Positions 1 to 26,836 of a DNA stretch of 26,836 nucleotides are shown in pieces. Where the stretch lies: IMG/VR virus record IMGVR_UViG_3300032053_000432, positions 1 to 26,836 of that record; one strand, given 5' to 3'. Each line of letters starts with the position of its first letter. The first letter of the stretch is position 1. This stretch comes from a virus. The translations under genes were made by a program, and so were the position numbers. The notes under the pieces were generated by a model. The model was not told the DNA's origin, ran no database searches, and saw only the letters and a list, made by a program, of their open reading frames with translations.

Positions 1-1
1 G

Positions 2-640
2 CCCCTCATCCGCAGGCTGCGCCAGCGTCAGGACCTCGACCGGTTCTACCTGTACGATGACTTCGCAACCTGCATGGACCCGGGCGAGACCCTCCAATAC
101 TGGGGTACGGCAAAGTCGGCAAGCTCGACGGTGCTGCCCATATCCGACGGGTCGCTGGAATTCCACGTGGCCAACGGGGACGCCGCTGGGTTTGCGACCC
201 TCCACAAAATGCACAAGGGTCAGTACTCCGTCGCCAAGCGCGCCCAGATGAGAGGGCGGTTCAAGCTCAGTCGCACCACGGACATCAATTGCCAGATCTC
301 GTTCTACGGGACCGCCGCCAACGCCATTGTGATGCTGACCTATGACACCCAGATCAGCGTAGTGGACCCGACCCACTGGATCTTCATCACGGACAACGCC
401 TCCGGCAACGAGAAGCACGACAGTGGGGTTGTGGCGACCCCCACCGTCTGGCACGAGTTTGAGATCAAGTGCCTGGCGTCGAACAAAGCGGAGCTGTGGC
501 TCGACGGAGCGTTGATCTGCACGAACACCACGTACATCCCGACCCAGGTCATGGAGCCGTCGTTCGCGGTCAGCACCTACACGACCACGGGACCGTACAT
601 GTACTTGGACTGGATAGAGTTGGAAGGGGACAGGCTCTAG
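2..640 (+). CDS. Lectin-like (LamG/jelly-roll) virion protein, 5' partial
   Basis: The frame is open from the left edge, so the true start lies outside the window; the first internal ATG is at 74. The visible 212 residues are beta-rich and end with a pattern typical of LamG/concanavalin-type jelly rolls: a WHEFEI strand, then a LWLDG hairpin, then a terminal DWIELEG strand. A DDF motif near the visible start matches the same family. Such domains bind glycans or form virion appendages. The next gene, one base downstream, has the same strand order and looks like a paralogue. Because the pair precedes the head-tail connector genes, it could decorate the head or neck rather than the tail tip; that is inference. 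Fold call moderate, role uncertain. Confidence 0.7.
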   Translation, partial: PLIRRLRQRQDLDRFYLYDDFATCMDPGETLQYWGTAKSASSTVLPISDGSLEFHVANGDAAGFATLHKMHKGQYSVAKRAQMRGRFKLSRTTDINCQISFYGTAANAIVMLTYDTQISVVDPTHWIFITDNASGNEKHDSGVVATPTVWHEFEIKCLASNKAELWLDGALICTNTTYIPTQVMEPSFAVSTYTTTGPYMYLDWIELEGDRL

Positions 641-641
641 C

Positions 642-1250
642 ATGCCCCTCCGTAAGTTCGACCCCGCCTCCGCCGTGGGCGGTCACCAGTGGATCACCGA
701 TGACTTTGGCGGGGCCCTGTATGATTGCTACATGTGGGGCTTGGTTGGGGGCTCTGGGTCCATTCCGGTTGTGGCCTCCGCCGTCGGCGGGCTGATCGTG
801 GTCAGAGCGGACGCCAGCAACTACTACGAGCTGGCCGCGCTGTACCCGCAGTTCACGGTGGCCAGGAACTTCCAGATCACCTGGCGGGGCAAGCTCGAGT
901 CCCTCACGACCAGCCGGGCGGCTTGGGGGTTGCAGACGGACGTTAACAACCGGGTCGAGTGGATCTACGAGGCGGCGCTAGGGGCGAACTGGCGATGCCG
1001 ATCCGTGGCCAGCTCAACGGGCACGGTCGTGGCGTCCGCCGTTGCTGCGGATACCGCCTTCCACGAGTTCACGATGGTGAGCGCCACGGGCTTGGTTCAC
1101 TTCGCCCTGGACGGCGTTCCCATCACCACTATCACGACCAACCTCCCAACGGGGGCCCTTGGTCCGTTCATCCGCTCGACCAGCACTGCGGCCGGGACGC
1201 GGGACGTGACGACGGACTGGGTCGAGGCTTTCTGCGACAGGACGGCGTGA
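642..1250 (+). CDS. Lectin-like (LamG/jelly-roll) virion protein
   Basis: This 202-residue protein starts at ATG 642, just after the previous TAG. It repeats the upstream protein's architecture: a DDF motif near residue 25, a mid-protein strand-rich core, then FHEFTM, a FALDG hairpin and a terminal TDWVEAF strand. The shared HEF...LDG...DWVE series suggests gene duplication. No signal peptide or membrane segment is seen, as expected for a virion part assembled in the cytoplasm. The likely role is glycan binding or surface decoration of the particle; the ligand cannot be told. A 122-base gap follows, the first break in the gene run. Confidence 0.72.
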   Translation: MPLRKFDPASAVGGHQWITDDFGGALYDCYMWGLVGGSGSIPVVASAVGGLIVVRADASNYYELAALYPQFTVARNFQITWRGKLESLTTSRAAWGLQTDVNNRVEWIYEAALGANWRCRSVASSTGTVVASAVAADTAFHEFTMVSATGLVHFALDGVPITTITTNLPTGALGPFIRSTSTAAGTRDVTTDWVEAFCDRTA

Positions 1251-1259
1251 CAAGACCTA

Positions 1260-1289
1260 TTGCCTGGGAAGACCTCCGTATCGTATGGT
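1260..1289 (+). promoter_or_regulatory. Candidate promoter before the enzyme cassette
   Basis: TTGCCT (1260-1265), an 18-base spacer and TATGGT (1284-1289) resemble a sigma70-type promoter, four of six matches in each box. It sits in the only sizeable gap in the first 9 kb and would drive the mini-ORF and the cassette from 1375. The match is weak and based on eye alone. Confidence 0.3.
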
Positions 1290-1320
1290 ACCTTCGAGTG
1301 GACACAACACCGAGGAAATC

Positions 1321-1368
1321 ATGCTGCTATTGATCCTGGTCTTGCTGCTCGGGTTCGGGCATAGGTAG
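1321..1368 (+). CDS. Hydrophobic 15-residue mini-ORF
   Basis: ATG 1321 to TAG 1368 encodes MLLLILVLLLGFGHR. It is preceded by GAGGAAATC, a plausible ribosome site with suitable spacing, and sits alone in the gap between the lectin pair and the glycosyltransferase. Its stop lies seven bases before the next gene's ATG, so it could act as a coupled leader peptide that places ribosomes at the glycosyltransferase start, or as a tiny membrane peptide. The hydrophobic run is too short for a confident transmembrane helix. The peptide may also be chance. No function assigned. Confidence 0.35.
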   Translation: MLLLILVLLLGFGHR

Positions 1369-1374
1369 GTCGTG

Positions 1375-3740: not shown

Positions 3741-4888
3741 CCTGGGATGACCACCAGCGGTGGGAGTTGGACTGCTGGAACAACCTGTACAACCGATGCT
3801 GTGCTACCTTCGACGAGGAGCAGAAACAGCAAGCCTACGCCCCGCTGATGGGTCTCACGTTGGACCGGCTCTACCGGGTGACAGGGTGCGAGGGCAAGAC
3901 GATCCTGGACCTCGGTGGAGGGCCGGTATCCTTGTTGCTGAAGACCCCCGGGGTGCTAGGTGTTGTTGTTGACCCGTGCCTCTACCCAGACTGGGTGAGG
4001 TCAAGGTACGCCGCCCTAGGCATCGAGCAGGTCGTTCTCCCAGCGGAGGGGTACACCGGCAATGGCTTTGACGAGGTGTGGATCTACAACGTGTTGGCAC
4101 ACGTGAAGGACCCTGAGGCAGTCATCCACACCGCGAGGCGGGCAGCCAAGGTGCTGCGGCTGTTTGAGTGGGTAGGGTATGGGCCAGGCCCTGGCCACCC
4201 TCATGCGTTGTCGGCTGAGGTGTTGTCGCAGTGGGTTGGGCACGTGTGTGAGGCGACACTTGTCACCCATTCCACGGGCTCAGGGAATGCCGTGCACGGC
4301 CATTGGGAGGTGACCCCGTCTACCCACCTGGGCGGCTATCTGGCCAAGGATGATGCCCACCCCAACGGAGACCCGTGGACCTGGACCCCAGACCTGTGGC
4401 AGTTCCTGCTAGACGCCCTGCGGCCTAAGACATTGCTCGACCTCGGGTGCGGCGAGGGGCACTCGACCAAGTGGTTCTACGACCATGGCGTGGACGCGTT
4501 TGGAGCGGACGGGTGCCCGTCCGCTAAGGCCGCCACGGTACTCCCCTCTGGACGCTTTATTCTCCTCGACCTCACGACCGAGACGCTTCACAGCCAGGTG
4601 GACATGGTCTGGTGTTGCGAGTTCCTGGAGCACGTGGAAGAGAAGTACCTCGGCAACGTGCTGGAGGCGTTCAGCCGATCGAACGTGGTGTGCCTCACCC
4701 ACGCCTTCCCTGGGCAACAGGGGCACCACCACGTCAACTGTCAGCCCCGGGAGTACTGGGTGGCCAAGATGGCGTCCATTGGGTTCAAGTTGGACGAGCG
4801 GTTGACGCTGGGTTCCCGGGTCTTCACCCCACCTCCCATGCATTGGGGCAGAAGTGGTATGATCTTCCGAAGGGCTTGGGATGGCTGA
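3731..4888 (+). CDS. Fused double SAM-dependent methyltransferase
   Basis: 385 residues. The start at 3731 overlaps the radical SAM stop by ten bases; GGAAG at 3716-3720 supports 3731 over the ATG at 3737. Two class I methyltransferase domains lie in series. Domain 1 (about 50-195) has motif I ILDLGGGP (58-65), a VVVDP acidic-loop strand, and DEVWIYNVLAHV. Domain 2 (about 225-385) has motif I LLDLGCGEG (235-243), GADG, and DMVWCCEFLEHV, then HHHVNCQPREYW (332-343). Both glycine-rich loops look intact, so both halves may bind SAM. Fused or paired methyltransferases of this kind are known in phage virion gene clusters and near sugar-modifying genes; targets are generally not known. The last eight bases overlap the next gene. 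Confidence 0.88.
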   Translation: MEMTWDDHQRWELDCWNNLYNRCCATFDEEQKQQAYAPLMGLTLDRLYRVTGCEGKTILDLGGGPVSLLLKTPGVLGVVVDPCLYPDWVRSRYAALGIEQVVLPAEGYTGNGFDEVWIYNVLAHVKDPEAVIHTARRAAKVLRLFEWVGYGPGPGHPHALSAEVLSQWVGHVCEATLVTHSTGSGNAVHGHWEVTPSTHLGGYLAKDDAHPNGDPWTWTPDLWQFLLDALRPKTLLDLGCGEGHSTKWFYDHGVDAFGADGCPSAKAATVLPSGRFILLDLTTETLHSQVDMVWCCEFLEHVEEKYLGNVLEAFSRSNVVCLTHAFPGQQGHHHVNCQPREYWVAKMASIGFKLDERLTLGSRVFTPPPMHWGRSGMIFRRAWDG

Positions 4889-9971: not shown

Positions 9972-12900
9972 ATGGCCCAGAAACGGTTTGGACCAACTCA
10001 GGATGCAGGCACGGTCATTCTCGAGAAGGAAGCCGAGAAGACGATCCAGGCGCATACCCTAGGGTCGACGGCCTACGCGGGTATCCTGGAACGCGGGGCG
10101 GTGGGCAGCCTCATCATCACGTCCGGCAAGCGGGACCTGCTGGCCAAGACCGGAGGACTTATCCCTGACAGTCTACTGCCGGACGCGGCACAGCACTTCT
10201 GGGATCACTCCAAGGGCGCGGGCATCCTGTTCCTATACCGCGTGGACGACGGCTCAGGGGTCCGTTCCAGCTTGACCTTGTGGGACCGCAAGAACCCCCG
10301 CAACAAGGTCATCCGTGTTGACGCCAACAACGTCGGCAAGTGGGCGGGGAAGAGGGACACGGTTGTGGTCGACCTGACAGCGGTGCCAGGTGACATCACG
10401 GCTACCGTCATCACCCTGCCGATGGGATACCTCGTCCCGAAGAACAAATGGAAGGGTGGCCTCCTGAAGCTGACAGGCTCGGGGGTGTCCTATTCCATCG
10501 TCTCCAACACAGCCGGGACGGCTGGCGTCCGTGCCACGGTCACATTGGCAGGCGACAGCCGGGCCCTGACGGACTTCGGGCTCGCCACGGACAGGGAGTG
10601 CACCCTCACCCTGGACAACCTGAACGAATGGGGCCTCGAGAAGAAACTGGCGGTGGAGGTCCTGGATGGTCAGCTTCACCCGACCACGGAGTGGGGGCTC
10701 AAGGTCTACGTCAACGATGAACTGGTAAGGAACTACCCCGACCTCTCTTCGGACCCGAATGCTGCCAACTACTACGTGGGCGTGATCAACAAGGACACGT
10801 CCAACGTGTTCATCACGGTCACCGACCTGTGGACTGGAGCCAACACGGCAGACGTACGCCCGGCCAACTGGTTCGGGGCGGTCGCGTCCACGGCCATCAC
10901 CGCGCTAGCGGCTGCGCTCAACACCTTGTGTGTGCGCGTGGACAGCAGCCTGGCTGGGCCGAACACCATCGCCCTCTTCACCTACGGCACCGAGGTCATC
11001 CCAGACACCTACGAGCTGGAGGTGATGTCGACAGGCCCGACGGTCTGGCGACTGAAGTCCCTCGACAAGCAGGCGACGCACACTTTCACCGCACCAGCGG
11101 ACACCGTCGCCTACGCGGCAGACAACCCCAAGTCCATCGGTTTCACGGTGACAGGGGGTGGCGTCGCGGCCGCGACCCTGCTCGGCACGCTGCCGGGCCC
11201 GTGGAACCTGGCCCCAGGTGACACCCTCGTAGGCGCGGTCGACAGGGCGGCAGACCAGACCGCTACGTTCACGGCGAGCGGGGCAGCCCGGGAGAACGCA
11301 CCCGCCGAGACCTACCATATCGACAACCTCTGGACGCTTCTGGTGAAGGTCGACGGGGGCGCGGTTCAGACCATCGTGTTCACCGCTGCCACGGACTTCG
11401 TCGACCACGCTGCGGCCACAGCGGAAGAGGTGGCCGCTGCTATCAACCGCCAGATCGTCGGAGCGAGCGCAACCGCTACCACGGCCGGGACCAAGGTGAC
11501 GATCACCAGCGACAAGAAGGGCTACGGCTCCTTCATCGAGGTCACGGGCGGTACGTCCAATGGCGTCCTTCTGTTCAACACGGCTGAGACCCGGGGCATC
11601 GGGAATGACGGAGCTGGACACAACTTCCTCGATATCGATGCCGTCTCCTTCGCCGAGTTGAAGCCCATCCTCGAGACCGCCTTCAGCAATACCGGAGGTG
11701 TGGTATGCACCGAGGTCGCGGGCTGCCTCCGCATCACGACCCATGGAACAGGCGCTGGGATGTACCTCCAGGTCCAGGCGGGGTCCAGTTGTGAGGGCAT
11801 CTTCGGGCTCTCCACTGTCGAGGTCGAGGGTTCCGGTGGCGTGCCGACACCAGGGGAGAAGTTCACCATATACGTCCTCCCACTCCTGGAGGACGAGGCG
11901 ATCAACGGGCGAATCTTCTACCCGGACGTTGCCCTGGCGCCGAAGGCCGGTTGGATCGTTTCCGACAACACGGAGGTCGGGGTCTCCATCGCAACCGGGG
12001 ACCTGACCATCGGCGGGACCATCGGTGGAAACGTGAAGGTCAGACTCCAGTACCGCCAGACCCTGATGGGTGGGTATGACGGGATCCATGACCTGGCGTC
12101 CCATGACTTCAGCCCTGCTTACGACCCGAGCACCTCTCCGTTCAACCAGACGGAGGGGCAGGGGTACGGGCTGATCAAGCACGCCACGCCGGGCATCTGG
12201 AAGATCGGCGGGAACGTGGACGCGACCACGGTGCAGAAGGCTGGCCAGGCGTACGCCGACCAAAAGAACCACCAATTCCGTTTCGAGTTCCAGGACACGA
12301 TCACCGACGAGTTTGTCGCCAAGGCGTACCTCGACACGATCGGGAGGAGCGATTACGAGAAATGCATATTCCCGAGTTACGCCAGCATCGCTGACCCTGT
12401 GAAGGACGGGGTCCTCAAGCTGGTGTCGGTCACGGGCATGGTTCATGGGGTCGAGGCAAGGACGGCGAAGGACTACGACGGCTACCACAAGGTGGCGGCT
12501 GGCATCTACGCCCAGCTACCACTCATCAAGGAACTCCCGATTGGGGACGTCAAGCTGAACGGCGAGGTGCTCAACCCGGCAGGAATCCCGAGGATCGAGC
12601 GCAAGGGTGGCAACTACATCATATGGGGCGCTCGGCTGCCGTCGCTCGACCTCGGCTGGAAGTGGTGTCAGCAACGGGAACTGATGTCCTACTATGAGCA
12701 CGTCCTGTCCGAGTCCTTCGACTGGATCATCTTCGCCATCAACGATGAGTTGGAGCAACCTGCGGCTGTGGCTGCTCTCCAGAGCTTCTTCCAGCCGGAG
12801 TGGAGGAAGCGGGCGCTTCGAGGCGCCACGTTCGAGGAGGCGTGTGAGATCAAGATGGATGCGGAGAACAACACCAACGCCACCAGAGCTGCCGGGGACA

Positions 12901-12998
12901 TGAATGTGGAGATCAAGCTGAGGCTCCCCGATACCGTGGAGCGGTTCATCATCACCATGTCCAAGATGGGCATCTTTGAATCCACGGCGGCAGCGTAG
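9972..12998 (+). CDS. Contractile tail sheath, oversized
   Basis: 1008 residues from ATG 9972 with GAAGGAG upstream. The C-terminal third (about 690-1008) is the conserved sheath core: QFRFEFQDTITDEFVAKAYL, a GVEARTAKDYDGYHKVAAGIYAQLP stretch, NYIIWGARLPS, the helical FDWIIFAINDEL, and an EIKLRLPDTVERFIITM final strand used to link neighbouring subunits. The N-terminus (LGSTAYAGILERG) also fits. Common sheaths run about 380-700 residues; the excess lies in the middle (about 370-660) and includes two related modules: TAEEVAAAINRQI near 482 followed by KVTITSDKKGYG, then a weaker second copy, FAELKPILETAF and LRITTHGTGAG. Such insertions project from the sheath surface in other phages. It contracts at infection to drive the tube through the cell envelope. 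Confidence 0.93.
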   Translation: MAQKRFGPTQDAGTVILEKEAEKTIQAHTLGSTAYAGILERGAVGSLIITSGKRDLLAKTGGLIPDSLLPDAAQHFWDHSKGAGILFLYRVDDGSGVRSSLTLWDRKNPRNKVIRVDANNVGKWAGKRDTVVVDLTAVPGDITATVITLPMGYLVPKNKWKGGLLKLTGSGVSYSIVSNTAGTAGVRATVTLAGDSRALTDFGLATDRECTLTLDNLNEWGLEKKLAVEVLDGQLHPTTEWGLKVYVNDELVRNYPDLSSDPNAANYYVGVINKDTSNVFITVTDLWTGANTADVRPANWFGAVASTAITALAAALNTLCVRVDSSLAGPNTIALFTYGTEVIPDTYELEVMSTGPTVWRLKSLDKQATHTFTAPADTVAYAADNPKSIGFTVTGGGVAAATLLGTLPGPWNLAPGDTLVGAVDRAADQTATFTASGAARENAPAETYHIDNLWTLLVKVDGGAVQTIVFTAATDFVDHAAATAEEVAAAINRQIVGASATATTAGTKVTITSDKKGYGSFIEVTGGTSNGVLLFNTAETRGIGNDGAGHNFLDIDAVSFAELKPILETAFSNTGGVVCTEVAGCLRITTHGTGAGMYLQVQAGSSCEGIFGLSTVEVEGSGGVPTPGEKFTIYVLPLLEDEAINGRIFYPDVALAPKAGWIVSDNTEVGVSIATGDLTIGGTIGGNVKVRLQYRQTLMGGYDGIHDLASHDFSPAYDPSTSPFNQTEGQGYGLIKHATPGIWKIGGNVDATTVQKAGQAYADQKNHQFRFEFQDTITDEFVAKAYLDTIGRSDYEKCIFPSYASIADPVKDGVLKLVSVTGMVHGVEARTAKDYDGYHKVAAGIYAQLPLIKELPIGDVKLNGEVLNPAGIPRIERKGGNYIIWGARLPSLDLGWKWCQQRELMSYYEHVLSESFDWIIFAINDELEQPAAVAALQSFFQPEWRKRALRGATFEEACEIKMDAENNTNATRAAGDMNVEIKLRLPDTVERFIITMSKMGIFESTAAA

Positions 12999-14500: not shown

Positions 14501-16932
14501 TGGCAGACCAACTTGGGTTGAACGCCAGGCTGACCTTCGACGGCACCCAGGCTATCACTGGGATGGCGAAGACCAACACGGCGTTTACCGCAATGCAGGC
14601 TCAGATGGGGAAGGTGCGGGCTGGTTTCGGGCAGGTGAAAGCGGGGCTAGGCGGGTTGAGGATTGGCGGGATCATCGCGGGCGTTGGCATCGGGGCGGCT
14701 ATTAGAGGGTACGCCAAGTTCGATTCCACGATGGCGGGCGTCCGGGCACAACTTGGGATAGAGGCTAGCAAGGACTTCCCACGACTAGAGACGGCTGCGC
14801 GATCCATGGCCGCCGAGACGGGGAAGGCGGGTGGGACAGTAGCCGAGGGGATGAAGGCGCTAGCGGAGAAGGGGCTTGACGCCAACGAGATCCTGCAAGC
14901 CATCAAGCCGACCCTAAACGGCATGACCGCAAGTGGTACGGACGCGAACACCTCCGCTGTCATGCTTGTGGATACCTACCGAAAGTTCGGACTGGGGGCG
15001 GACCAGGCCGGGAAGTCCATGGACACCATCGTCCAAGCGGCCCGGCTTGGGGGCAAGGGTGGGGCTGTCCCTGAATTTGCATCGGCTCTGCAATCAATAG
15101 GAGGAACCGCTCAACTCCTGCACCTGGACATGAAGGACGCGGCTGCGGGCTTAGCACTGTTCACTAAGGGCGGGCTGGACTCTGGGTCTGCTGCCATGAA
15201 CCTCAACATGGCGCTCCTCAAGATGTCCAGGGCGAGCAAGGACGGGTACCTCTCCATCGCCGGTCTGGGCAAGGTAGCGATCCCGACCAAGAACGGGGCG
15301 ATGGACCTCCAGGGGACAATGACCAACATCGCCGTCGCCTTGAACTATGTGAAGGACCCGATGGAGCGGGTCAACCTCGCCATGTCGCTGTTCGGGATGC
15401 GAGGCAGGGAATCGGCGGCAGCCTTGGAGAAGCTGACTAAGGACCCCACGGCCCTGCCCAAGATGTTCGCCGACATCCGCAACAAGTCGGATGGTGCTAC
15501 CGCAGCGATGGCGAAGATGAAGACGGACACGTTGGAGGGGCGGTTCAAGAAGTTGCAGAACGCCCTGGCCAACGTGTCCATGGAGATTGGTTCTGCCTTC
15601 CTCCCGTTCGTGGAACGTGGAGTCAAAGCCATCGTGCCGATGGCCCAGCAATTCGCCACGGCGTTCAGGTTCTTCACCACAACGCCAGGTGCCGTGGAGA
15701 AGATGGGTACCACCATTGCTGGGGTCAGCCCTACGATCACGGCGATGTCCCAGGGGCTCATTGCGGGCTTTGCTGGAGTAAAGGAGGCGGCTAACTGGGT
15801 GATCGGCGGTGTCCGCACCATCGGTGGGTTGTTCGGCGGGGGCGGGCCTGGTTCATCAGGCATCAAGACGACCATGGAGTGGGCCGTCAAGCTGGCTGCC
15901 GTTGCGGGTGCCTACAAGCTCCTTGGGCCGGTGATCAAGTCCGCTATGAACATCGGCATCGGCGCAGGCAAGATGCTGGTTGGCTCCCTGTCTGCCCTTG
16001 GCACCGCGTCTACCGGGCTACTCGGTCTCATTGGCAAGCGATTCCCGGCTGTGGCCAAGATGCTCCCACGAGGAGCGGGGGCTCTTGGGAAGGTGCTGGG
16101 TGCGGCGGAGAAGATCACGGCACAGCCTGTCCGCATCGTGAACTGGGACGAGGCGGGTATGGCGGGGACGGGTGGGACCTCGCCTGGCGCGCTACCAGCT
16201 CCTGGGGCCACCCCCGGCAGTCCGCAGGGCTGGAGGGCGCGGGCATCCGGTAAGCTCGGCTCGCTGGGTGGTGGGGTTGCCATGGCTGTGGGCGGAGGCA
16301 TCGCTCTTAACATGCTCCAGGGCGAGATGACCGGGCCGATCAAGACGGTGGGCAACACCATCCTGGGCATCTCGGCGATGTTTGGGCCGGCTGGCATGGC
16401 CGTCGGTGGCATTGCAGCGGCCACGATGGCGTTCGGCACCAAGATAGACGAGTGGACGGGGGCCAGCACCTTCGCTGCCAATTCCATGTTCAACTTCGCC
16501 CAGTCCATCAGTGCCGAGGCCAGGGCAGCGGCCATGCGGGCGTACACAGGCAACGTGGCGTTCGAGGAAGCCATGCGGACAGCCAAACAGATGGTGGGCA
16601 TTGCTGGGCGCGGCGGGACCGTCGGGCTTGAGGGCGGCGTACGAAGGGGCGTCACTTCGGAGTTGATACAGGAGAGGATCGCCAAGTCAGCGGCCCTGGC
16701 AGCCAAGTCATCAGGCGCAACCGTTGAGGAGCAGAAGGCCATGGTCCAAGCCGTCATGCGTGAGATGGGCCCACAATTGGCTGCGGCGATCAAGAACAAC
16801 ATCAAGGTCGAGGCGACCCTGCTCCTGGACAGCCGCCCGGTGGCCAAGGGCGTAGCCGGGGCTGAGCAGGAGAAGAAGGAGCGGCGCGGTGAGAGCCAAG
16901 CTCCAGGTTCCCGCAGAAGGGCAGCAAGCTGA
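14500..16932 (+). CDS. Tail tape measure protein
   Basis: 810 residues from ATG 14500, sharing a base with the chaperone stop; an in-frame GTG one codon earlier is possible. Residues 55-300 resemble the PhageMin_Tail core: a GYAKFDSTMAGVRAQLG stretch, ETAARSMAAETGKAGGTVAEGMKALA, and DKDAAAGLALFTKGG-type helix (MKDAAAGLALFTKGGL). The middle and C-terminal parts carry several long hydrophobic, Gly/Ala-rich segments (for example 54-70 and several after 460), suited to membrane insertion after ejection. By the usual rule of about 1.5 angstrom per residue the tail would be near 120 nm. No muralytic domain is visible. The end overlaps the LysM gene (TGATG). Confidence 0.9.
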   Translation: MADQLGLNARLTFDGTQAITGMAKTNTAFTAMQAQMGKVRAGFGQVKAGLGGLRIGGIIAGVGIGAAIRGYAKFDSTMAGVRAQLGIEASKDFPRLETAARSMAAETGKAGGTVAEGMKALAEKGLDANEILQAIKPTLNGMTASGTDANTSAVMLVDTYRKFGLGADQAGKSMDTIVQAARLGGKGGAVPEFASALQSIGGTAQLLHLDMKDAAAGLALFTKGGLDSGSAAMNLNMALLKMSRASKDGYLSIAGLGKVAIPTKNGAMDLQGTMTNIAVALNYVKDPMERVNLAMSLFGMRGRESAAALEKLTKDPTALPKMFADIRNKSDGATAAMAKMKTDTLEGRFKKLQNALANVSMEIGSAFLPFVERGVKAIVPMAQQFATAFRFFTTTPGAVEKMGTTIAGVSPTITAMSQGLIAGFAGVKEAANWVIGGVRTIGGLFGGGGPGSSGIKTTMEWAVKLAAVAGAYKLLGPVIKSAMNIGIGAGKMLVGSLSALGTASTGLLGLIGKRFPAVAKMLPRGAGALGKVLGAAEKITAQPVRIVNWDEAGMAGTGGTSPGALPAPGATPGSPQGWRARASGKLGSLGGGVAMAVGGGIALNMLQGEMTGPIKTVGNTILGISAMFGPAGMAVGGIAAATMAFGTKIDEWTGASTFAANSMFNFAQSISAEARAAAMRAYTGNVAFEEAMRTAKQMVGIAGRGGTVGLEGGVRRGVTSELIQERIAKSAALAAKSSGATVEEQKAMVQAVMREMGPQLAAAIKNNIKVEATLLLDSRPVAKGVAGAEQEKKERRGESQAPGSRRRAAS

Positions 16933-17681
16933 TGTCCGACACAAAGATCAAGGTCGATTGGGAGCTGAAGAACCTGGACACGGGCGAGGTGCTGCGCCCG
17001 CCATACCCCGTGAGTGAAGACGGGGTGAAGTACCCTGTTGGAGGGACCTACACAGACCAGCCCCGTTTTGGGATGGACCCGGTCTCGAGCTGGATCGGGG
17101 GCAAGTCAAGGCCATACCAGTTCTCGACCGTACTGTTCGCGGAGACCACGGCTGACGACATCCGTGGCAAGTTCAACGCCATCAAGCGGCTGGCTGAACC
17201 TGACGAGGCGCTAGGGCGCCCGCCCATCTGTGTCTTCAGCTACGCGGGCTTCGATGCGATGGTGCTGGTGGAGAACGTGGATGTGGAGATCAAGCCACCA
17301 CGTGAGGACGGCTCGCCTCGTCTCATCACACTGTCCTTCACCCTCAAGCGGTACAAGCCGTTCTCCCAAGTCCAGATCGACCCAACGAAGCCGAGCAAGG
17401 AGAGTTATTACCTGGTCGTTGCTTCGCCCGAGGCTTGTTACGAGCAGATCGCTAAGCGGTACTACGGCTCGGCACTCGCGGGGGATCGCATCAGGAAGCG
17501 GCATCCAGCCATGCCGATGCAGCCAACGGTAGGGTCCAAGGTTGAGCTGCCGTCCCGCTCGATCATCCTCCGAGAGGTGGTGCAGCCGTCTTACCACGCC
17601 TTCTGCCCTACGGACGTGGATGCCACCAAAGCATTCCAGGACCTGCTTAACCGTAGAGCAGGGCACAAGGTGGTCCTCTAG
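16932..17681 (+). CDS. Baseplate-tube adaptor with LysM domain
   Basis: 249 residues from ATG 16932, overlapping the tape measure stop by one base. The N-terminal part (1-145) has the contractile injection system tube-protein pattern: FGMDPVSSWIGGKSRPYQFSTVLF, a helix, and PPICVFSYAGFDAMVLVENVDVEIK. Residues about 159-208 look like LysM: EACYEQIAKRYYGSALAGDRIRKRHP, then GSKVELPS. In this family the LysM module is a structural clamp between tube and hub or binds peptidoglycan. A LysM protein right after the tape measure is typical of myovirus baseplates. It is followed by a hairpin-rich gap. Confidence 0.8.
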   Translation: MSDTKIKVDWELKNLDTGEVLRPPYPVSEDGVKYPVGGTYTDQPRFGMDPVSSWIGGKSRPYQFSTVLFAETTADDIRGKFNAIKRLAEPDEALGRPPICVFSYAGFDAMVLVENVDVEIKPPREDGSPRLITLSFTLKRYKPFSQVQIDPTKPSKESYYLVVASPEACYEQIAKRYYGSALAGDRIRKRHPAMPMQPTVGSKVELPSRSIILREVVQPSYHAFCPTDVDATKAFQDLLNRRAGHKVVL

Positions 17682-17706
17682 ATGGCGGGTACGATGCCTG
17701 AGCGCC

Positions 17707-17719
17707 CGCCCAGTGGGCG
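17707..17719 (+). other. Small hairpin after LysM gene
   Basis: CGCCC, loop AGT, GGGCG form a 5-bp GC-only stem just ahead of a stronger hairpin at 17721-17739. It is part of the structured 125-base gap between the LysM and hub genes. Confidence 0.4.
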
Positions 17720-17720
17720 T

Positions 17721-17744
17721 TGCATGGGGTCCCCATGCAGTTTT
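17721..17744 (+). terminator. Likely rho-independent terminator
   Basis: TGCATGGGG, a central T, and CCCCATGCA form a near-perfect palindrome (in practice about 7 bp with a GGTCC loop), followed by G and TTTT. This is the best intrinsic terminator in the window and would end or weaken the transcript from the neck, sheath and tape measure genes. Confidence 0.65.
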
Positions 17745-17774
17745 GACGCCTCCCCACCTGGGGCGCTCTACGGT
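17743..17774 (+). promoter_or_regulatory. Candidate promoter for hub and baseplate genes
   Basis: TTGACG (17743-17748) starts inside the terminator's T-run; TACGGT (17769-17774) lies 20 bases later, longer than the usual 17, so the match is weak. The -10-like box is 33 bases before the hub ATG, nearly the same distance as TATGGT before the mini-ORF at 1321. Two further GC stems (CCCC/GGGG at about 17752-17764 and GTCC/GGAC near 17773-17785) overlap it. Confidence 0.3.
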
Positions 17775-17806
17775 CCTCTGGGGACGTTACAGGAGGCATC
17801 CCAAAA

Positions 17807-19297
17807 ATGCCTATGATTCCGGCATCCCAGTTTGAGCCTGGGGATGAGCTAGGGCCGTCCTTTGACATCTTCATTGAAGGGAAGGACGCCAGCTCCTCCA
17901 GCCCGGCGTTTGAGGCCATCCGCCCTCTCATTGCAGGCGTGACCTACGAAGAGGATGAGGAGATGACCGCCCTATTCGAGCTTCAGGTCATCAACCAGCC
18001 TGACATCCGGATGGGTGAGGGCTCGAAGGTTGACTGGCACGCTGTTCTGGACTGCAAGGCGTTTCAGGAGGGCAACGGCATCGACCTTTTCATGGGCTAC
18101 GCTGGGGCCAAGACGTACATGGGCAGGGTGGAGATCGTGAAGTGGTTGCCCAAGTTCGGAGCACAAGGACCAACAGAGTTCTTGATCAAGGGCTTCGATG
18201 GGCGTCACAGGATGATGCAAGGCAACCAGGTCAAGGCCAAGGCGCCAAAAGAAGACAAAGCAAGCGGTGGGGCGAAGGGGAAGCAAGCCTCGTTGGCTGG
18301 AAAGGCGCCGAAAGCATCGAAGGGGTCTGCCAACAAGCAACGCCATGTCTACCGCAGCATGACCGATGACCAGGTGGTTAAGAAGGTCGCGGCAAAGTAT
18401 GGGTTCGCGGTGGACTGCGACACCCCGGAGAAGGGGTTGGCTGCTAAGTCTGGGGGAAAGAAGAAAGGCGTGGTCATAAAGGAGGGCGCGGTGCAGAAGG
18501 AGACGCCAGCAAAGTCCAAGCGCCGTACTGCCGCCACCCCTACCCGTGTCCAGGTTGCTGATCAGACCGACTGGCTCTTCCTGCAACGCCTTGCCACGAT
18601 CAACCGCTTCGACCTCTGGGTGGACTATGACCTGGAGGCAAAGCGGTGGGTAGTCCACTTCAAGAAACGCCGGGACATCGGCGATCCGTTGATGACCTTC
18701 ACCTACAATGGAGAGGACGGTAGCCTCCTTGAAGCGGAACCTGACTTCTCGGTCAAGGAGCAGAGTACCAGCGTTGAGGTCCTCTACTTCGACCGCAAGA
18801 CAAGGACCATCGAGCTGACCTCCCTGGAAGACCAGACGAAGGAAGAGGACGTGAGCTTTGGCACTGCCATGCCGGGGAGCTTCACAGCCAAGAAGACGAC
18901 AGGGGTTGGTGCAAGGGTCCGGTTCACGGCCTTCGGTCAGAGCCTGGAGGCCATCTCCAACAAGCCCTTCCGCAGCAGGAAGGACGCCGAGGCGTTCATC
19001 GCGGACTGGCTCAAGGAGAAGGAGCGCGACCTGGTCGTCCTCAAGGGGAAGGTGGTGGGCATGGAGTCGCTGCGCCCACGGCAGGTGCATGAATTCCTCG
19101 GCATGAACACGCGGCTTGACGGCGTGTACCGCCTCACGCAGGTCAAGCATGTTATGCAGCCGGGTAGCCCTTACGTTGTGGAGTTCATCGCTCACAAGGT
19201 ACTCTCTGAGGACATCAGCCGCCGCAAGGCCACGACCAAGGCCAAGGTGAAGGCGAAGGGCATCGTGGTTGAAGGCGGGAAGGTATCCAGTAAATGA
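17807..19297 (+). CDS. Baseplate hub protein (gp27/gpD-like)
   Basis: 496 residues from ATG 17807, ten bases after AGGAGG (17791-17796). The N-terminal TALFELQVINQPDIRMGEGSKVDW stretch and GRVEIVKWLPKFGAQGPTEFLIKGFDGRHRMMQ form the first hub sheet; after the insert, TDWLFLQRLATINRFDLWVDYD and a WVVHFKKR strand begin the second, as in late-control gpD and T4 gp27. Residues about 143-235 are Lys/Ala/Gly-rich and low in complexity, an apparent insertion or flexible linker. LDGVYRLTQVKHVMQPGSPYVVEF near 440-465 is a usual hub ending. It forms the trimer that joins tube and spike. It couples to the spike gene (ATGA). Confidence 0.82.
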   Translation: MPMIPASQFEPGDELGPSFDIFIEGKDASSSSPAFEAIRPLIAGVTYEEDEEMTALFELQVINQPDIRMGEGSKVDWHAVLDCKAFQEGNGIDLFMGYAGAKTYMGRVEIVKWLPKFGAQGPTEFLIKGFDGRHRMMQGNQVKAKAPKEDKASGGAKGKQASLAGKAPKASKGSANKQRHVYRSMTDDQVVKKVAAKYGFAVDCDTPEKGLAAKSGGKKKGVVIKEGAVQKETPAKSKRRTAATPTRVQVADQTDWLFLQRLATINRFDLWVDYDLEAKRWVVHFKKRRDIGDPLMTFTYNGEDGSLLEAEPDFSVKEQSTSVEVLYFDRKTRTIELTSLEDQTKEEDVSFGTAMPGSFTAKKTTGVGARVRFTAFGQSLEAISNKPFRSRKDAEAFIADWLKEKERDLVVLKGKVVGMESLRPRQVHEFLGMNTRLDGVYRLTQVKHVMQPGSPYVVEFIAHKVLSEDISRRKATTKAKVKAKGIVVEGGKVSSK

Positions 19298-19947
19298 ACC
19301 GAGAACAGACCCTGGCCGTGGTCACCAACAACAAGGACCCCGCGAAGGGCGGGGCGATCAAGGTGGCCTTAGCCTCGATGGGAAGTGAGGAGTACCCTGA
19401 GTGGGTCGAGCCCATCCACCCAGCTGGTGTCTTCTTCCACCCCGAGCCTGGTGACACGGTTCACATGGATATCCCAGAGGGCGCGGACATAACGGAGTTC
19501 TCAGAGGAGGTCCGCTACCACGGCAAGGTCACGTCCGAGACCGAAGCGTACCCGGACGAGTTCCAGACCAACTACCCTGACCGCAGGGGCTTCCAGACCA
19601 AGAAGGGGCACACCCTCATCCTGGATGACAAGACCGGCGACTGGCTGATCAAGACAGCCGAGACCGGGCACGAGATCAAGCTGGAGGGTGAAGGGACCGT
19701 CACGATCAAGAACGGCAAGACGGGAGACACGGTTGTGATGGGGTCTGGTGGGGTTTGTGTTACGTCGGCGACCACGAAGCTGGGAGGGGCTGCGGCTGTT
19801 GACGCCCTGGTCAAGGGGACCACGTTCAAGGCGTCGTTTGCGGCTATGGTAGCTGCTTCCAACCCAGCGGAGACCATGGCGCTGGTCAACGCCATCCTCA
19901 CTGCCCTCAAGGCAACCGCCCTTTCAACCAAGGTCACGACGGAGTGA
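19294..19947 (+). CDS. Baseplate central spike (gpV/gp5-like)
   Basis: 217 residues from ATG 19294, overlapping the hub stop by four bases, with GGAAGG upstream. Residues about 18-80 are an OB-fold typical of gpV: GGAIKVALASM, WVEPIHPAGVFFHPEPGDTVHMDIP. After a linker comes GHTLILDDKTGDW (106-117), a hallmark of spike proteins, and then alternating short strands (HEIKLEGEGTVTIKNG, TVVMGSGGV) that build a trimeric beta-helix needle. KLGGAAAVDALVKGTTF (162-178) followed by a helix closes the protein, as in related spikes. No lysozyme domain and no visible HxH iron tip. It punctures the outer surface on contraction. Confidence 0.88.
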   Translation: MNREQTLAVVTNNKDPAKGGAIKVALASMGSEEYPEWVEPIHPAGVFFHPEPGDTVHMDIPEGADITEFSEEVRYHGKVTSETEAYPDEFQTNYPDRRGFQTKKGHTLILDDKTGDWLIKTAETGHEIKLEGEGTVTIKNGKTGDTVVMGSGGVCVTSATTKLGGAAAVDALVKGTTFKASFAAMVAASNPAETMALVNAILTALKATALSTKVTTE

Positions 19948-19950
19948 ACG

Positions 19951-20322
19951 ATGGCCAGAGGTATCCAGGTTCCTCTCGCGGTCAACAACGGTCGGCTCCG
20001 CAAGCTGACCGGGGATGACTACATCGACCAACTCATTCGTGTGGCACTCAAGGGCATGGACAGCGACAACCCATTCCAGACGGTCGGACTGGGCGAGTGG
20101 ATGATCTTCGGTATCAACGACGGCATGGACACAGGCGAGATCAAGCAACGGGTTGTTGCCATCTTTGCCTCCCTGAAGGCCGACCAGTTAGCCCAGTTAA
20201 AGGACCCGGATGACGACCTCGTCTTCACCACACGAGGCGAGGAGCTGTGGCTGGACCTCACATACGTCAACATGGAGACCCAGGAGCGTATGGAGTTGTC
20301 CGTTCCCATCCCAGGAGAATGA
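19951..20322 (+). CDS. Baseplate wedge protein, gp25-like (tentative)
   Basis: 123 residues from ATG 19951, with GGAGTGA upstream. Position between spike and J protein, and size, fit the gp25/W-type wedge. Sequence support is partial: PLAVNNGRLRKLTGDDYIDQLIRVALKG, then a helix with GEIKQRVVAIFASLKADQLAQLKDP, and a C-terminal strand pair LWLDLTYVNMETQERMELSVPI. The usual EWR core of gp25 is not clear (GEWMIFGINDG is the nearest stretch). It would bind the hub and begin the sheath at the baseplate. Confidence 0.6.
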   Translation: MARGIQVPLAVNNGRLRKLTGDDYIDQLIRVALKGMDSDNPFQTVGLGEWMIFGINDGMDTGEIKQRVVAIFASLKADQLAQLKDPDDDLVFTTRGEELWLDLTYVNMETQERMELSVPIPGE

Positions 20323-20325
20323 CCT

Positions 20326-22764
20326 ATGACGTCGGTGATCAAGGTTCCATCGTGCGAATTCAGCGCCTTCTACTACCCGGAAATCCTCAAGGAGCTGCTC
20401 TACTACTTCCGGCGCAACCGGGACGCCATGGGGCTCACGGACGAGAACGAATACGAGGTCCACGTTCAGATCCTCCGCGCCTTCGCCCTGGTGGGGCATC
20501 TCAACAACTGCCGCACCGACCTCATCGCGCAGGAAACGCTGGTGGACACCTTGGTGCTACTGGAGAGCCTCAAGCGCCTAATGAAACTGATTGGCGTCCG
20601 GCTCAACAGCGCCTCGCCAGCGAAGGCGAATCTGCTACTCAAACTGTCAGAGGTGACGACAGCCGACGTCACTGGCTTTATCCCAGAGCTATCGGAGTTC
20701 GCAACCGAGTCCGTCCCGCCAATCCCTTACGAGGTCTTGGAGGCAGGTGGTGTTGACCTCACCCGTACTGACCGACCCGCTCATGTGTTTGGTCTGGAGA
20801 CGGTGAAGACGGGTATTGGATCTGTCAGTACGACCGGTCCGGACCAGTTTGCACGCACAAGCGGAGACACCTTCACCTCGGCCGCGGTCTCTCAACACCT
20901 CTTCATCCTGCAAGGTGTAAGTGGCAACGGGGGAGAGTTCCGTGTCACCGAGTATATTGATGCCGACCATGTTCGGGTTGTGCGGGTGCCTGGCTCAGGG
21001 AGCCCGGGGTTTCAGACCGAGGCGAACCTGACCTGGGTGCTCAAGGCGTTCACCGCTGACTTCGCCGTCGAGAACTATACTCCTGGGTCTACCTACGTTC
21101 CTTGGGCGACCCCGATCGCTGGGGACGCCCTCCTCGTCGGCCATACCCAATGCTTCCCGGGGCAGGTCGATGTGGATGTGACAGCAGGGTCGGTCGGGAT
21201 CACGGGGTGCTGGGAATACTACGATGGAATCCTCTCTGCCCTGCCACCAACATTGGTGACCGACAACCATGATGGGACCATGACCTTCAACGTCAACTCC
21301 CTGCTGGGTACGCCCGACAGGCATGGAGCCGACGTGGTTGTGGAGTACATTCCGACGGGCCAGAAGGAGCGATTGGTCTCCACGTTCTCCACCGTCAACC
21401 GTGTCATAACGGTAGGGCTCCTCGGTCAGGTTACGCCGTCGGAGGACGTGGATGATTACGCGGTGCGGGCTGACTGGGTGCCGTTCGAGAACCAGGACGA
21501 CGGCTCGATCAACTTCACGGTGGATGGGTCGGTCTCGTTCAATTTGCCCCAAGATCAACAGAGGAGTTGGAACGAATACGAAGCAAACACCTTCGTGGGA
21601 TGGTGGACACGTTACCGTGTTGTTGCCGTCTCCACTCCCACCTCCCCTACCATCGAGGAGGTCTCCATCGACCAGGGCGACCAGTTCATCATGGTCACGG
21701 CAACCCAGGGCGAGACCATTGGACCCCAGGTTGTCGGGAGCAGTGTTGGTACCCCAAGTCAGTCCTTCGTCTTGCCCGAGACGCCGTTCCTGGATGATAG
21801 CGACGAGGTGGAAATAGACGAGGGCAGTGGGAACTGGGTGACGTGGGTCAGGGTCGAGAACTTCCTCAACAGCACCGAGACCAGCCGCCACTACATGATA
21901 GAGACGGACGCGAGTGACAAGGCGACCATCATGTTCGGGGATGGGATGACGGGGAAGATCCCACCGACTGGGACAAGCAACGTCCGGGTGGCTTACCGCG
22001 TAGGTGGGGACCTAGACGGGAACGTGGGGGCGGAGGAGATCACGACCAACGCCGACGGTGTCAATGGCATCTCGGAGGTGACGAATCCACGAGCGGCTTA
22101 CGGCTGGAGGATGAAGGACGGCGGGTCGGAGCAGGACATTGAACGAGTGAAACGGGACGCTCCAGCTGGCCTCCGCACGAGGGACACGGCTGCCACTGGC
22201 CCGGACTGTGAGCGGCTGGCAGTCAAGAAGTTCGTGGATGCGGATGGCGTCAAGCCTGTGGCTAGGGCGAATGCGGTAGAGGAGGGGCTAGGACCAAAGA
22301 CAGTCAAGCTCATGGTCGTTGGCAACGGGGGCATCACGCTAACCCAAGATCAGCGGGAGCAGCTGGAGGAATACTTCAACGGCAACCGCTACGCTTCCCC
22401 GCCGACCGCTGGGGTGTTGGTGGTCAACCATCGCGTCGGCGTCTTCAACTTCGAACCAAGGGTCATCACGATCCAAGCGACGGTGGCTTGGGCTGGAGGC
22501 AACGCGGAGGCTATCCGCAACGCCCTACTGGTCCTACTGACGCCTCTGGCGATAGAGGAGGACGACGGCGTGACTTGGGTCTGGGACTACGGCGGGTGGG
22601 TAAGCCAGTCGAGGATCCTATCCGAGATCCACGCTGTGGACCCTGGTGTCACGGACGTGTCATCATGGCTGATCAACGGGGTACACGCCAGCCTGAAGCT
22701 GGGGGCGCATGAGTTGCCGGTGTCCTCGGCGGCAAGCATCACGATCAACATCCAAGAGGCGTAG
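20326..22764 (+). CDS. Baseplate J-like wedge protein
   Basis: 812 residues from ATG 20326, with AGGAGAA upstream. The diagnostic block is GNWVTWVRVENFLNSTETSRHYMIE, then IMFGDGMTGKIPPTG (FGDG at 537-540) and YRVGGDLDGNVGAEEI (Asn566 in GNV), the pattern of baseplate J / T4 gp6-type proteins. A helical N-terminus (YYPEILKELLYYFRRNRDAM) precedes about 250 residues of extra beta structure (150-400), so the protein is longer than small J proteins. The C-terminal third (590-810) has the usual AVKKFVDADGVKPVARANAVEEG and GPKTVKLMVVGNGG strands. It makes the baseplate ring that triggers sheath contraction and holds the fibres. Confidence 0.85.
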   Translation: MTSVIKVPSCEFSAFYYPEILKELLYYFRRNRDAMGLTDENEYEVHVQILRAFALVGHLNNCRTDLIAQETLVDTLVLLESLKRLMKLIGVRLNSASPAKANLLLKLSEVTTADVTGFIPELSEFATESVPPIPYEVLEAGGVDLTRTDRPAHVFGLETVKTGIGSVSTTGPDQFARTSGDTFTSAAVSQHLFILQGVSGNGGEFRVTEYIDADHVRVVRVPGSGSPGFQTEANLTWVLKAFTADFAVENYTPGSTYVPWATPIAGDALLVGHTQCFPGQVDVDVTAGSVGITGCWEYYDGILSALPPTLVTDNHDGTMTFNVNSLLGTPDRHGADVVVEYIPTGQKERLVSTFSTVNRVITVGLLGQVTPSEDVDDYAVRADWVPFENQDDGSINFTVDGSVSFNLPQDQQRSWNEYEANTFVGWWTRYRVVAVSTPTSPTIEEVSIDQGDQFIMVTATQGETIGPQVVGSSVGTPSQSFVLPETPFLDDSDEVEIDEGSGNWVTWVRVENFLNSTETSRHYMIETDASDKATIMFGDGMTGKIPPTGTSNVRVAYRVGGDLDGNVGAEEITTNADGVNGISEVTNPRAAYGWRMKDGGSEQDIERVKRDAPAGLRTRDTAATGPDCERLAVKKFVDADGVKPVARANAVEEGLGPKTVKLMVVGNGGITLTQDQREQLEEYFNGNRYASPPTAGVLVVNHRVGVFNFEPRVITIQATVAWAGGNAEAIRNALLVLLTPLAIEEDDGVTWVWDYGGWVSQSRILSEIHAVDPGVTDVSSWLINGVHASLKLGAHELPVSSAASITINIQEA

Positions 22765-25212
<2,448 letters not shown>

Positions 25213-25230
25213 GTTTGTTGGTAACTGCAA

Positions 25231-26836
25231 ATGGCTTACACCATCACCCAGCGGTCACGGATAACGGCAGCGGATGGCGCTGTTCTAGACCAATTTGGTT
25301 GTTCGATAGGATTAAACGCCAACACTCTTATCGTAGGCGCTCAAGGCGTTGACGGTGCGGGGCACCCATACTGTGGCGCAGCGTACATCTATACTAGGCC
25401 AGCCATAGCCGGTGTTTGGTCGCTACAGCAAAAGTTGCAGGAGACTTTCCCGGCATACTTCGAGGAGCCCCTCCCTGTCCCTGGCGGGTATTGGCCGTAC
25501 AATCTTCCGTTCAGGAGAAGCTACAAGAACCCATACTATGGCTGTTTGGTCGGCCTGTGGCAGGCAAACATTGCGGCGGTTGCGGTCCGTCTACCGTGGG
25601 ATGCCGCGTGGGAGCCACTGTATGAATCATGGGCCAGCCACTATCACCCAATGGATCCTTTCGGCACTTGTACGTTTGGCTACTGCGGTGGTCCGTGGCA
25701 GGTGATTACCTATGCACGGGCGGCCGGTGTGTGGAGCCAGTTGGCCATTGGGAAGTTGGACCCTCTGGACTATTACGCCTACACGGCACCTGCTAATCCT
25801 TGGCCAGACCCCAGCGGAGTGCCCACGTCCATCCGCGCGTTTCCGTATTCCATCTCCTCCCTTGCTGTGGGCGATGGAATTGTAGCTGCGGGTTGCATCC
25901 AGCGGAGTTGGAACGAGTCCGTGTTTAGTTACTACGGGGTAAATTCCCACCACGGGTCCGGTGCGGTTACGGTGTTCAGCGGAGGGTCGGAGGTTTGTTG
26001 CATCGATGACCCGGACAAGCACCCGGGGGAGTTTGTCACTCCCTTCCCCTACTACGATAACCGCTTCGGGTCAAGTGTCTCCATTTGTCCGTTGACTGGG
26101 ACAACGATGGTGATTGGTGCCATCAAGGCGCTGGGTGGTTCTGGTCGAGGGCGGGTGTATGTCTTCACAGGTTCTGGTGGCAGCTGGTCCCTTCAACAAA
26201 CCATATCCCCTGCCACGGGGTCTTGTTCGACCTTTGGAACGAGTGTGGCGGTCTATGGCGACTACCTGGTTGTCGGCGCCCCCACGCTGGTCCGTGGGGA
26301 GGTCCATATCTATAAGCGAACGGGCGTGGTCTGGGCTGAGCAGGCGTTGCTTACAGACGCCGCTGGGGCTCGTTTCGGGTCCACAGTTGGCATTGACAAA
26401 AACACCGTGCTCGTCGGCGACCCAATGGTGGGCGCCGGGGCCTACGGACAGATCTCCGCCTACTACCGGGCTGGGACAACCTGGACCCTGGTCGGTAGAA
26501 AATACTCCACCCCAACAGGCAACAGCGAGTACATGACCCAGCAAGGCGTGGCCGCCCTTGGAGATGGCGTACCGACCTACATGGCTGCGGTGCAGAGGTA
26601 TTCCGCCGGGGCTAACACAGGGGCGGTAGTTGAGTTCTATGTGGCCAGTCCAGGACCGGGCTACCCGAGCATCACCAACAATTCCCCGCTGTGGTCGGGG
26701 GTGCTCCCTAACGTGGACCTTACCTTCCAGTTGATAGACCCAGACCTGCGCGCCGACTTGGACCCCACCAAGACCCGGGTATGGGTCAACGGCGCCGTGA
26801 TCTACGAAAACGAGGTGCCGGTCAGTGGCTGGTTTG
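25231..26836 (+). CDS. FG-GAP (integrin-like) beta-propeller tail protein, 3' partial
   Basis: Read by hand: ATG 25231 begins a frame open to the window edge (535 codons, no stop). An in-frame TAA at 25222 and a weak ribosome site (TAGGT, 25210-25214) mean it may depend on coupling to the collagen gene. Seven units of about 45-70 residues can be seen (near 20-69, 100-170, 203-257, 276-325, 333-378, 381-425 and 432-474). The clear ones have the FG-GAP form: FGCSIG...LIVGA, FGSSVS...MVIGA, FGTSVA...LVVGA and FGSTVG...VLVGD, each followed by a Gly-x-V/I-x-h-Y/F strand and often a W-S/A-x-x-Q turn. This is the fold of integrin alpha heads. After 475 an Ig-like segment starts (LTFQLIDPDL, TRVWVNGAVIYEN). 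Ten cysteines are unusual for a tail protein. Likely an adhesin. Confidence 0.85.
   Translation, partial: MAYTITQRSRITAADGAVLDQFGCSIGLNANTLIVGAQGVDGAGHPYCGAAYIYTRPAIAGVWSLQQKLQETFPAYFEEPLPVPGGYWPYNLPFRRSYKNPYYGCLVGLWQANIAAVAVRLPWDAAWEPLYESWASHYHPMDPFGTCTFGYCGGPWQVITYARAAGVWSQLAIGKLDPLDYYAYTAPANPWPDPSGVPTSIRAFPYSISSLAVGDGIVAAGCIQRSWNESVFSYYGVNSHHGSGAVTVFSGGSEVCCIDDPDKHPGEFVTPFPYYDNRFGSSVSICPLTGTTMVIGAIKALGGSGRGRVYVFTGSGGSWSLQQTISPATGSCSTFGTSVAVYGDYLVVGAPTLVRGEVHIYKRTGVVWAEQALLTDAAGARFGSTVGIDKNTVLVGDPMVGAGAYGQISAYYRAGTTWTLVGRKYSTPTGNSEYMTQQGVAALGDGVPTYMAAVQRYSAGANTGAVVEFYVASPGPGYPSITNNSPLWSGVLPNVDLTFQLIDPDLRADLDPTKTRVWVNGAVIYENEVPVSGWF

Follow-up and report, generated by a model that had tools for sequence, protein, structure and literature searches.

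What does the propeller-coding gene at the right end of this viral record do beside the collagen-like tail fibre that precedes it? The window, that is the whole stretch of DNA analysed here, is the entire virus record of 26,836 bases, and its last open reading frame starts with the ATG at 25231 and remains open over 535 codons to the record end, just as the earlier note had read it. That note, made from the sequence alone, saw in this gene an FG-GAP propeller lying directly after a collagen fibre and proposed it as a tail adhesin, with the pairing as a mimicry of animal matrix. The adjacency is borne out by the open reading frame of the fibre, and the interval is laid out as follows.

20326..22764, + strand: J-like baseplate-wedge protein upstream of the fibre (phrog_219, E 1.6e-18; Baseplate_J only at E 0.12)
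22768..25212, + strand: collagen-like tail fibre, 814 aa (PF01391, E 3.7e-11; PHROG tail fibre families)
25231..26836, + strand: putative propeller adhesin gene, 535 aa, 3' end beyond the record (PF14312, AlphaFold2 model)

The assignment of the protein to the FG-GAP_2 family follows from the match of PF14312 to its whole length (E 1.4e-28, 99.2 bits against a curated cut-off of 23), which is distributed over four stretches and thus combines a score above the cut-off with several repeats. When placed singly, with E values for one record, the units at 25246-25392 (E 5.1e-14), 26185-26307 (E 1.0e-7) and 26059-26166 (E 2.3e-7) pass this cut-off, and the unit at 26332-26436 (E 1.1e-5, 21.2 bits) alone falls under it; the number of units therefore does not drop below the four that the earlier note had set as a minimum. 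Of the two FG-GAP models that the note had named, PF14312 fits and PF01839 yields no candidate in the protein. PHROGs contain no family for it at E 0.1, its comparison by sequence with the PDB returned a single irrelevant match (E 0.34), and a motif search found no DxDxDG-like, RGD or DxSxS motif. A scan of bacterial genomes with the same protein, able to reach only close relatives, found none among its 38 pattern matches, and six plasmid records match it with 29-36% identity over 16-36% of its length; FG-GAP_2-like proteins are present on both bacterial and archaeal plasmids.

The structure of the window protein (P0001) was predicted with AlphaFold2 on an alignment of 24 rows, which comprised 21 of 38 viral loci (L006-L043) together with P0001 itself, its counterpart P0003 and part of locus L002. 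The resulting model has a pTM of 0.71 and a mean pLDDT of 63.7, with values mostly of 70-93 in the strand-bearing blocks and under 50 in the long loops of one face, hereafter called top, and in nearly all of residues 474-535. Its strands group into seven blades, the last of which we take to be completed by the N-terminal strand in an integrin-like manner.

25240..25266, + strand: N-terminal strand, residues 4-12, taken to close blade 7 (DSSP of the model)
25291..25437, + strand: blade 1, residues 21-69 (model; FG-GAP_2 match 25246-25392)
25546..25758, + strand: blade 2, residues 106-176, with a 35-aa loop between strands B and C (model; without its own HMM match)
25852..26007, + strand: blade 3, residues 208-259 (model; without its own HMM match)
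26065..26205, + strand: blade 4, residues 279-325 (model; FG-GAP_2 match 26059-26166)
26242..26355, + strand: blade 5, residues 338-375 (model; FG-GAP_2 match 26185-26307)
26383..26505, + strand: blade 6, residues 385-425 (model; FG-GAP_2 match 26332-26436, the one under the cut-off)
26551..26646, + strand: blade 7, residues 441-472, inner strand weakly defined (model; without HMM match)

Since four of the seven blades are recognised by the HMM, blades 2, 3 and 7 depend on the structure prediction. Integrin entries take ranks 1-10 in a Foldseek search of the PDB (best E 1.6e-11), and in a second structural comparison, with 973 chains aligned, they fill all of the best 50 of 973, the foremost match having a Z of 33.3 over 375 residues at 3.4 A and 18% identity. 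The integrin alpha propeller (PDB 4wk0 chain A, with this Z over this length) has, like the model, seven four-stranded blades closed by an N-terminal strand, and the start of an Ig-like segment after the propeller is a further likeness; it differs by carrying PF01839 instead of FG-GAP_2 and by the calcium-type FG-GAP/DxDxDG loops that the phage protein lacks, and identity among the best 50 of the 973 structural matches is 14-18%. Lacking PF01839 and the integrin calcium loops, the window protein is integrin-like and not an integrin. The FG-GAP propeller gene that the earlier note had recognised at the record end is confirmed in this way, and its complete seven-bladed, integrin-alpha-like architecture holds as a prediction. 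In a viral structure library several of the best matches are giant-virus proteins and others are nameless; matches to phage proteins occur as well, one annotated as FG-GAP in an uncultured member of the Caudovirales (E 3.2e-16) and another a virion structural protein from cyanophage S-TIM5 (E 1.3e-12), so that the propeller fold as such has precedents in phages.

A scan of viral contigs recovered one close relative, IMGVR_UViG_3300032397_000005 (G001; 105,443 bases), a tailed phage by its terminase (E 1.7e-65), portal and head genes, which carries the propeller gene at both of its ends. The copy at its right end (P0003, hereafter copy A) covers residues 1-528 and is 96% identical to the window protein, whereas that at its left end (P0002, copy B) runs from residue 89 onward with 89% identity; the two ends overlap at 85% nucleotide identity, which implies at least two alleles or copies of the gene. 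The features defined by comparison with this relative are listed here.

1..1351, + strand: second block common with the relative, at the left record end (96% nucleotide identity overall, about 99% over 1-1200)
22984..24318, + strand: collagen-like GXY stalk of the fibre, residues 73-517, not common to the relative
24343..25212, + strand: fibre tip, 295 aa, 98% identical to that of a non-collagen fibre (sequence comparison)
24343..26836, + strand: shared block of fibre tip and propeller (95.4% nucleotide identity with the relative, to 26814)
26665..26835, + strand: start of the Ig-like segment, residues 479-535 (inspection and weak self-similarity; low pLDDT; continued in P0002 of the relative)

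The Ig-like segment that the earlier note placed after the propeller indeed starts in the window, where it is only begun. Extension past 26836, which the note had asked for, could not be direct, the window being the whole record, and is provided by P0002, which runs about 390 residues beyond the window's end before reaching a stop. These extra residues are called Ig-like domains by inspection, Pfam offering no more than a TIG match at E 0.046 elsewhere in P0002. One stretch of P0002 matches a free-standing protein of 159 aa in the same interval of locus L074 (28% over 82 residues, E 7.6e-6). In locus L002, an 80-aa open reading frame directly after the propeller gene (2517-2759) repeats the final 77 residues of the propeller protein at 58% identity, and its start overlaps the stop of the propeller gene (TGATG).

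The matched tail genes of the relative follow the order of those in the window at 25-49% identity in the matched stretches, with the baseplate-wedge protein at 37%. The shared block begins inside the fibre gene: the relative's fibre has 527 aa and no collagen match in Pfam, and its last 295 residues are those 98% identical to the tip of the window fibre. Between window and relative, 6 of 660 positions differ over nucleotides 24385-25044 and 13 of 180 over 25045-25224; in the comparison of the window with copy A, the tip (98%) is about as conserved as the propeller (96%). From 24343 on, the G+C content is 58.4%, as against 61.3% for window 1-22767 and about 64% for the relative's pieces. On this sequence evidence, fibre tip and propeller look like one exchangeable module that is indifferent to the collagen stalk, and the module appears to have been exchanged between distantly related phages, its two parts being nearly identical while the other matched tail proteins retain 25-49% identity. 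Downstream of the propeller, the relative has a Tail_P2_I-like gene (E 0.0042, 17.4 bits, under the cut-off of 20.6). The propeller gene is thus found, as phage receptor-binding proteins are, in the tail-fibre interval of a tailed phage, after the J-like gene and the fibre and before this weakly matched gene. A beta-helix was considered for the fibre tip and set aside: DUF1565 leaves only a weak trace in the relative's fibre (E 0.027), and a structure prediction from two sequences reached a pLDDT of 33. The N-terminus of the relative's fibre (L001 6399-7982) is 38-44% identical to two proteins of L074 (12485-13378 and 17867-19708), which lie in the fibre interval of a phage of the other lineage, and is likely a common tail anchor by this similarity.

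The second shared block contains two genes of at least 212 and 202 aa, with 12 differences in 1,200 nt over window 1-1200, and it lacks the low G+C of the first (60.9 and 66.0% for its two genes). Window 1-1250 corresponds to G001 81957-83206 (L066 1957-3206), and these two small genes are nearly identical, like the fibre tip, amid divergent tails; the first of them shows a weak polysaccharide-lyase/disaccharide-hydrolase-like trace. The first 126 nt of the window are identical to the relative from position 81957, and the left end of the relative is an exact repeat of 127 nt from its right end. De Bruijn assemblers with a k of 127 leave overlaps of such length. These overlaps fit that value, and we infer from them that window and relative come from one assembly, in which both contigs were broken at branch points between variants. 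The right ends show shorter stretches of identity to the third copy, 83 nt for the window and 61 nt for the relative.

Further contigs were found with the relative's terminase and the window's baseplate protein as queries. Identity of the latter protein is 62% with its counterpart in G018, 55% in G019 and 68% in G020; these three in turn are 36-38% identical to the relative's, which groups with that of G015 (68%). Terminases follow suit, those of G018 and G020 being 34% identical to the relative's and that of G015 79%. FG-GAP_2 matches in none of the six further records, of which G015 and G020 alone are informative in this respect: G016 lacks a match to the baseplate protein, the G017 record stops within the baseplate gene, and those of G018 and G019 stop shortly behind it. 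In G015 and G020 the interval from J to I holds other proteins, fibre-like in part. The window phage may belong to the relative's kind and have acquired another tail; whether or not this is so, the sequences indicate that tip and propeller stayed together on two tails. The terminase matches of G018 (52815-54164) and G020 (63605-64975) cross in-frame stops (TGA in the former, TGA and TAG in the latter), which could reflect an intervening sequence, an error or recoding.

Variation in the propeller was evaluated with three copies that are not independent of each other, namely the window (W) and copies A and B of the relative. They form a mosaic: W is identical to A over 26245-26664, and of the 120 positions in 25705-25824 one separates it from B and 34 separate it from A; part of this mosaic could be due to assembly phasing. 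We assigned the two faces of the propeller from the predicted model, in which loops longer than 8 aa occur on the top face only, with up to 36 aa, and bottom loops have 2-8 aa; the top loops between blades 1 and 4 have 36, 35, 31, 22 and 19 residues. In integrins the face with the long loops is the one that binds ligands. Relative to synonymous differences, nonsynonymous ones are more frequent in the top loops than in the rest of the protein for the pairs A/B (p 0.019) and W/B (p 0.004), with no such excess for W/A (p 1.0), and counts of changed residues alone are significant in no pair (p 0.12 for A/B, 0.82 for W/A and 0.25 for W/B). Bottom-loop codons change about as often as top-loop ones, with 5 of 32 against 28 of 181 in A/B and 6 of 32 against 23 of 181 in W/B. 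Variable sites that involve F, W or Y make up 12 of 31 in the top loops and 0 of 24 elsewhere (p 0.0005, in a test chosen post hoc), a result tempered by the expectation that aromatics buried in strands are conserved anyway. A diversity-generating retroelement may be less likely as the source of this variation: many of the differences among the copies are synonymous, and PF00078 (reverse transcriptase) was found in none of nine records, window and G001 included, all of which may be fragments.

How common such propellers are in other viruses was assessed in a search that started from the FG-GAP protein of Vibrio phage nt-1. This protein matched 53 viral loci, 36 of them (L008-L043, several being near-duplicates) in the propeller region; the remaining 17 match, by their best segment, at the N-terminus or close to it only. 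For 25 of the 36 loci, near-duplicates again included, no more than 45 residues separate the end of the match from the C-terminus of an open reading frame of 577-1016 aa. A PHROG scan of ten related propeller proteins detected tail-fibre N-termini in two, L008 (E 4.5e-19) and L037 (E 2.3e-21), and no tail family in the other eight. Among 69 of the 87 listed neighbour proteins (all those of L025, a near-duplicate of L023, of L027 and of L033 were left out, as were some of L037, L039 and L041), one baseplate wedge family and two tail fibre families are among the commonest with four members each, and ribonucleotide reductase has three, in the best 25 of 133 families. The nt-1 protein itself (VPFG_00309; 36% identity over 170 aa) and two proteins of Sinorhizobium phage Phosso (XYS97288 and XYS97289) belong to the Pfam family of the window propeller; they measure about 390-400 aa, that of nt-1 has an N-terminus unlike the window's, and their records are labelled 'FG-GAP repeat protein' or 'hypothetical protein', not adhesins.

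The reading that we favour, with a probability of roughly 0.57, is that the gene encodes a virion tail adhesin for host recognition working together with the fibre tip. Its N-terminal seven-bladed FG-GAP_2 propeller, with the topology of integrin alpha, would expose the long and aromatic-rich loops of one face as the surface that recognises a bacterial ligand, and the C-terminal Ig-like part, whole in the relative, would likely anchor the adhesin to the tail, as suggested by the resemblance of a P0002 stretch to the free-standing protein of L074. The propeller would contact the C-terminal tip of the neighbouring fibre whatever the stalk, and the two would be passed on jointly as a single module, flanked by the J-like and I-like baseplate genes. 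Its place in the tail cluster upholds the gene as the candidate for receptor recognition or fibre partnership that the earlier note had seen in it. The common inheritance of tip and propeller would also suit a structural or assembly role, in which the propeller caps the fibre or joins it to the baseplate as a hinge or collar and the tip touches the receptor; the likeness of part of the Ig-like region to a small protein of the L074 fibre interval fits this role too. The turnover of aromatics on one face, like the long loops it carries, is more in keeping with a recognition surface than with a connector, a counter-argument that is not strong, given that the tip could be compared only between the window and one copy, in which it is about as conserved as the propeller; on balance we consider a connector rather unlikely. 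Further down the Foldseek list, other propellers include polysaccharide lyases, sialidases and fructosidases (E about 2e-6 to 1e-5), as expected for a carbohydrate-active lyase or glycosidase degrading surface polysaccharide, but integrin entries precede them by about five orders of magnitude in E and fill the best 50 of 973 structural matches, and Pfam finds no enzyme family in P0001-P0003, which makes such an enzyme improbable.

That the assembler joined the block of tip and propeller to the window phage would account for both record ends lying in blocks nearly identical to one other contig, which the left end overlaps exactly over 126 nt and with which the right block shares uninterrupted identical runs as long as 493 nt. 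Yet the fibre frame is uninterrupted across the junction, the block and its other copy are about 5% apart in sequence, and the tail part 14658-22239 recurs at 98.9% in another record, which ends before the junction; a chimeric contig is accordingly very improbable. As to the earlier idea of animal-matrix mimicry, by which the collagen fibre and the integrin-like propeller would serve to engage animal tissue or the phage's own collagen stalk, the adjacency of collagen repeats and integrin-like fold was its attraction. We reject it and hold it to be scarcely credible: the relative has the same propeller and tip on a fibre lacking a collagen match, the window protein has none of the motifs searched for, and FG-GAP_2-like proteins on bacterial and archaeal plasmids make an animal origin unnecessary. 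In animal integrins, moreover, collagen is bound by the I domain and not by the propeller. The collagen stalk is incidental to the adhesin that we propose.

In most environmental phages, the parts that bind the receptor are difficult to identify from sequence. With more doubt than conviction, we put forward the wider idea that FG-GAP_2 propellers are widespread, unnamed receptor-binding heads of phages with the architecture of integrin alpha, diversifying on the integrin ligand face, and that in the present phage group the cassette of head and tip moves between lineages with unrelated tails, setting host range independently of them. If the propeller is a recognition head, FG-GAP_2 would become a marker for host-range modules, the nearly identical module on two divergent tails would make it possible to test if the host is determined by tip and propeller alone, and an integrin-type ligand face would be in use by bacterial viruses with no animal connection. 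Among open-access papers, judged largely by title, we found none on FG-GAP propellers as phage tail adhesins; in the sections consulted, the FG-GAP passage of one concerns the plasmid FG-GAP_3 (PMC9600348) and another, on Ig-like phage adhesins, mentions no propeller, FG-GAP or integrin (PMC13370021). Tail propellers have been proposed as recognition domains in the receptor-binding protein (RBP) of the S. aureus phage phi11, with five blades, and in PhiKZ gp131C, with seven; for that of phi11, glutamine cyclotransferase is the best DALI match and the pertinent section gives no relation to integrins (PMC4901313). The phi11 propeller lies inside a trimeric RBP, whereas that of the window has a separate gene beside the fibre, a comparison made by description only. 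Beta-propeller lectins are combined with collagen-like shafts in the eBAP3 fibres of eCIS, a phage-tail-derived injection machine (PMC12923769, in the part considered), there in one fibre and here in two genes. Collagen-like proteins of E. coli O157:H7 prophages form trimers with a likely role in phage side tails, and have terminal domains other than the window's, with no propeller in the domain list consulted (PMC3368898).

Some minor observations concern the wider tail region and the repeats. Ahead of the tail genes, window 1372-4888 carries genes for a glycosyltransferase, a B12-binding radical SAM protein and a methyltransferase in a row. The tail sheath proteins of about 1,000 aa (window 9972-12998 and L066 7706-10738) match in permuted order in their N-terminal parts, with 110-342 of the window corresponding to 345-572 and 399-617 to 118-330, a pattern that a shuffling of inserted domains would leave. 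The 42-kb record of locus L035 (G007) holds 40 FG-GAP_2 units in at least five open frames of 603-2515 aa, and the 34-kb record of L007 (G003) holds 14 units and an open frame of 7,146 aa containing FG-GAP_2 units.
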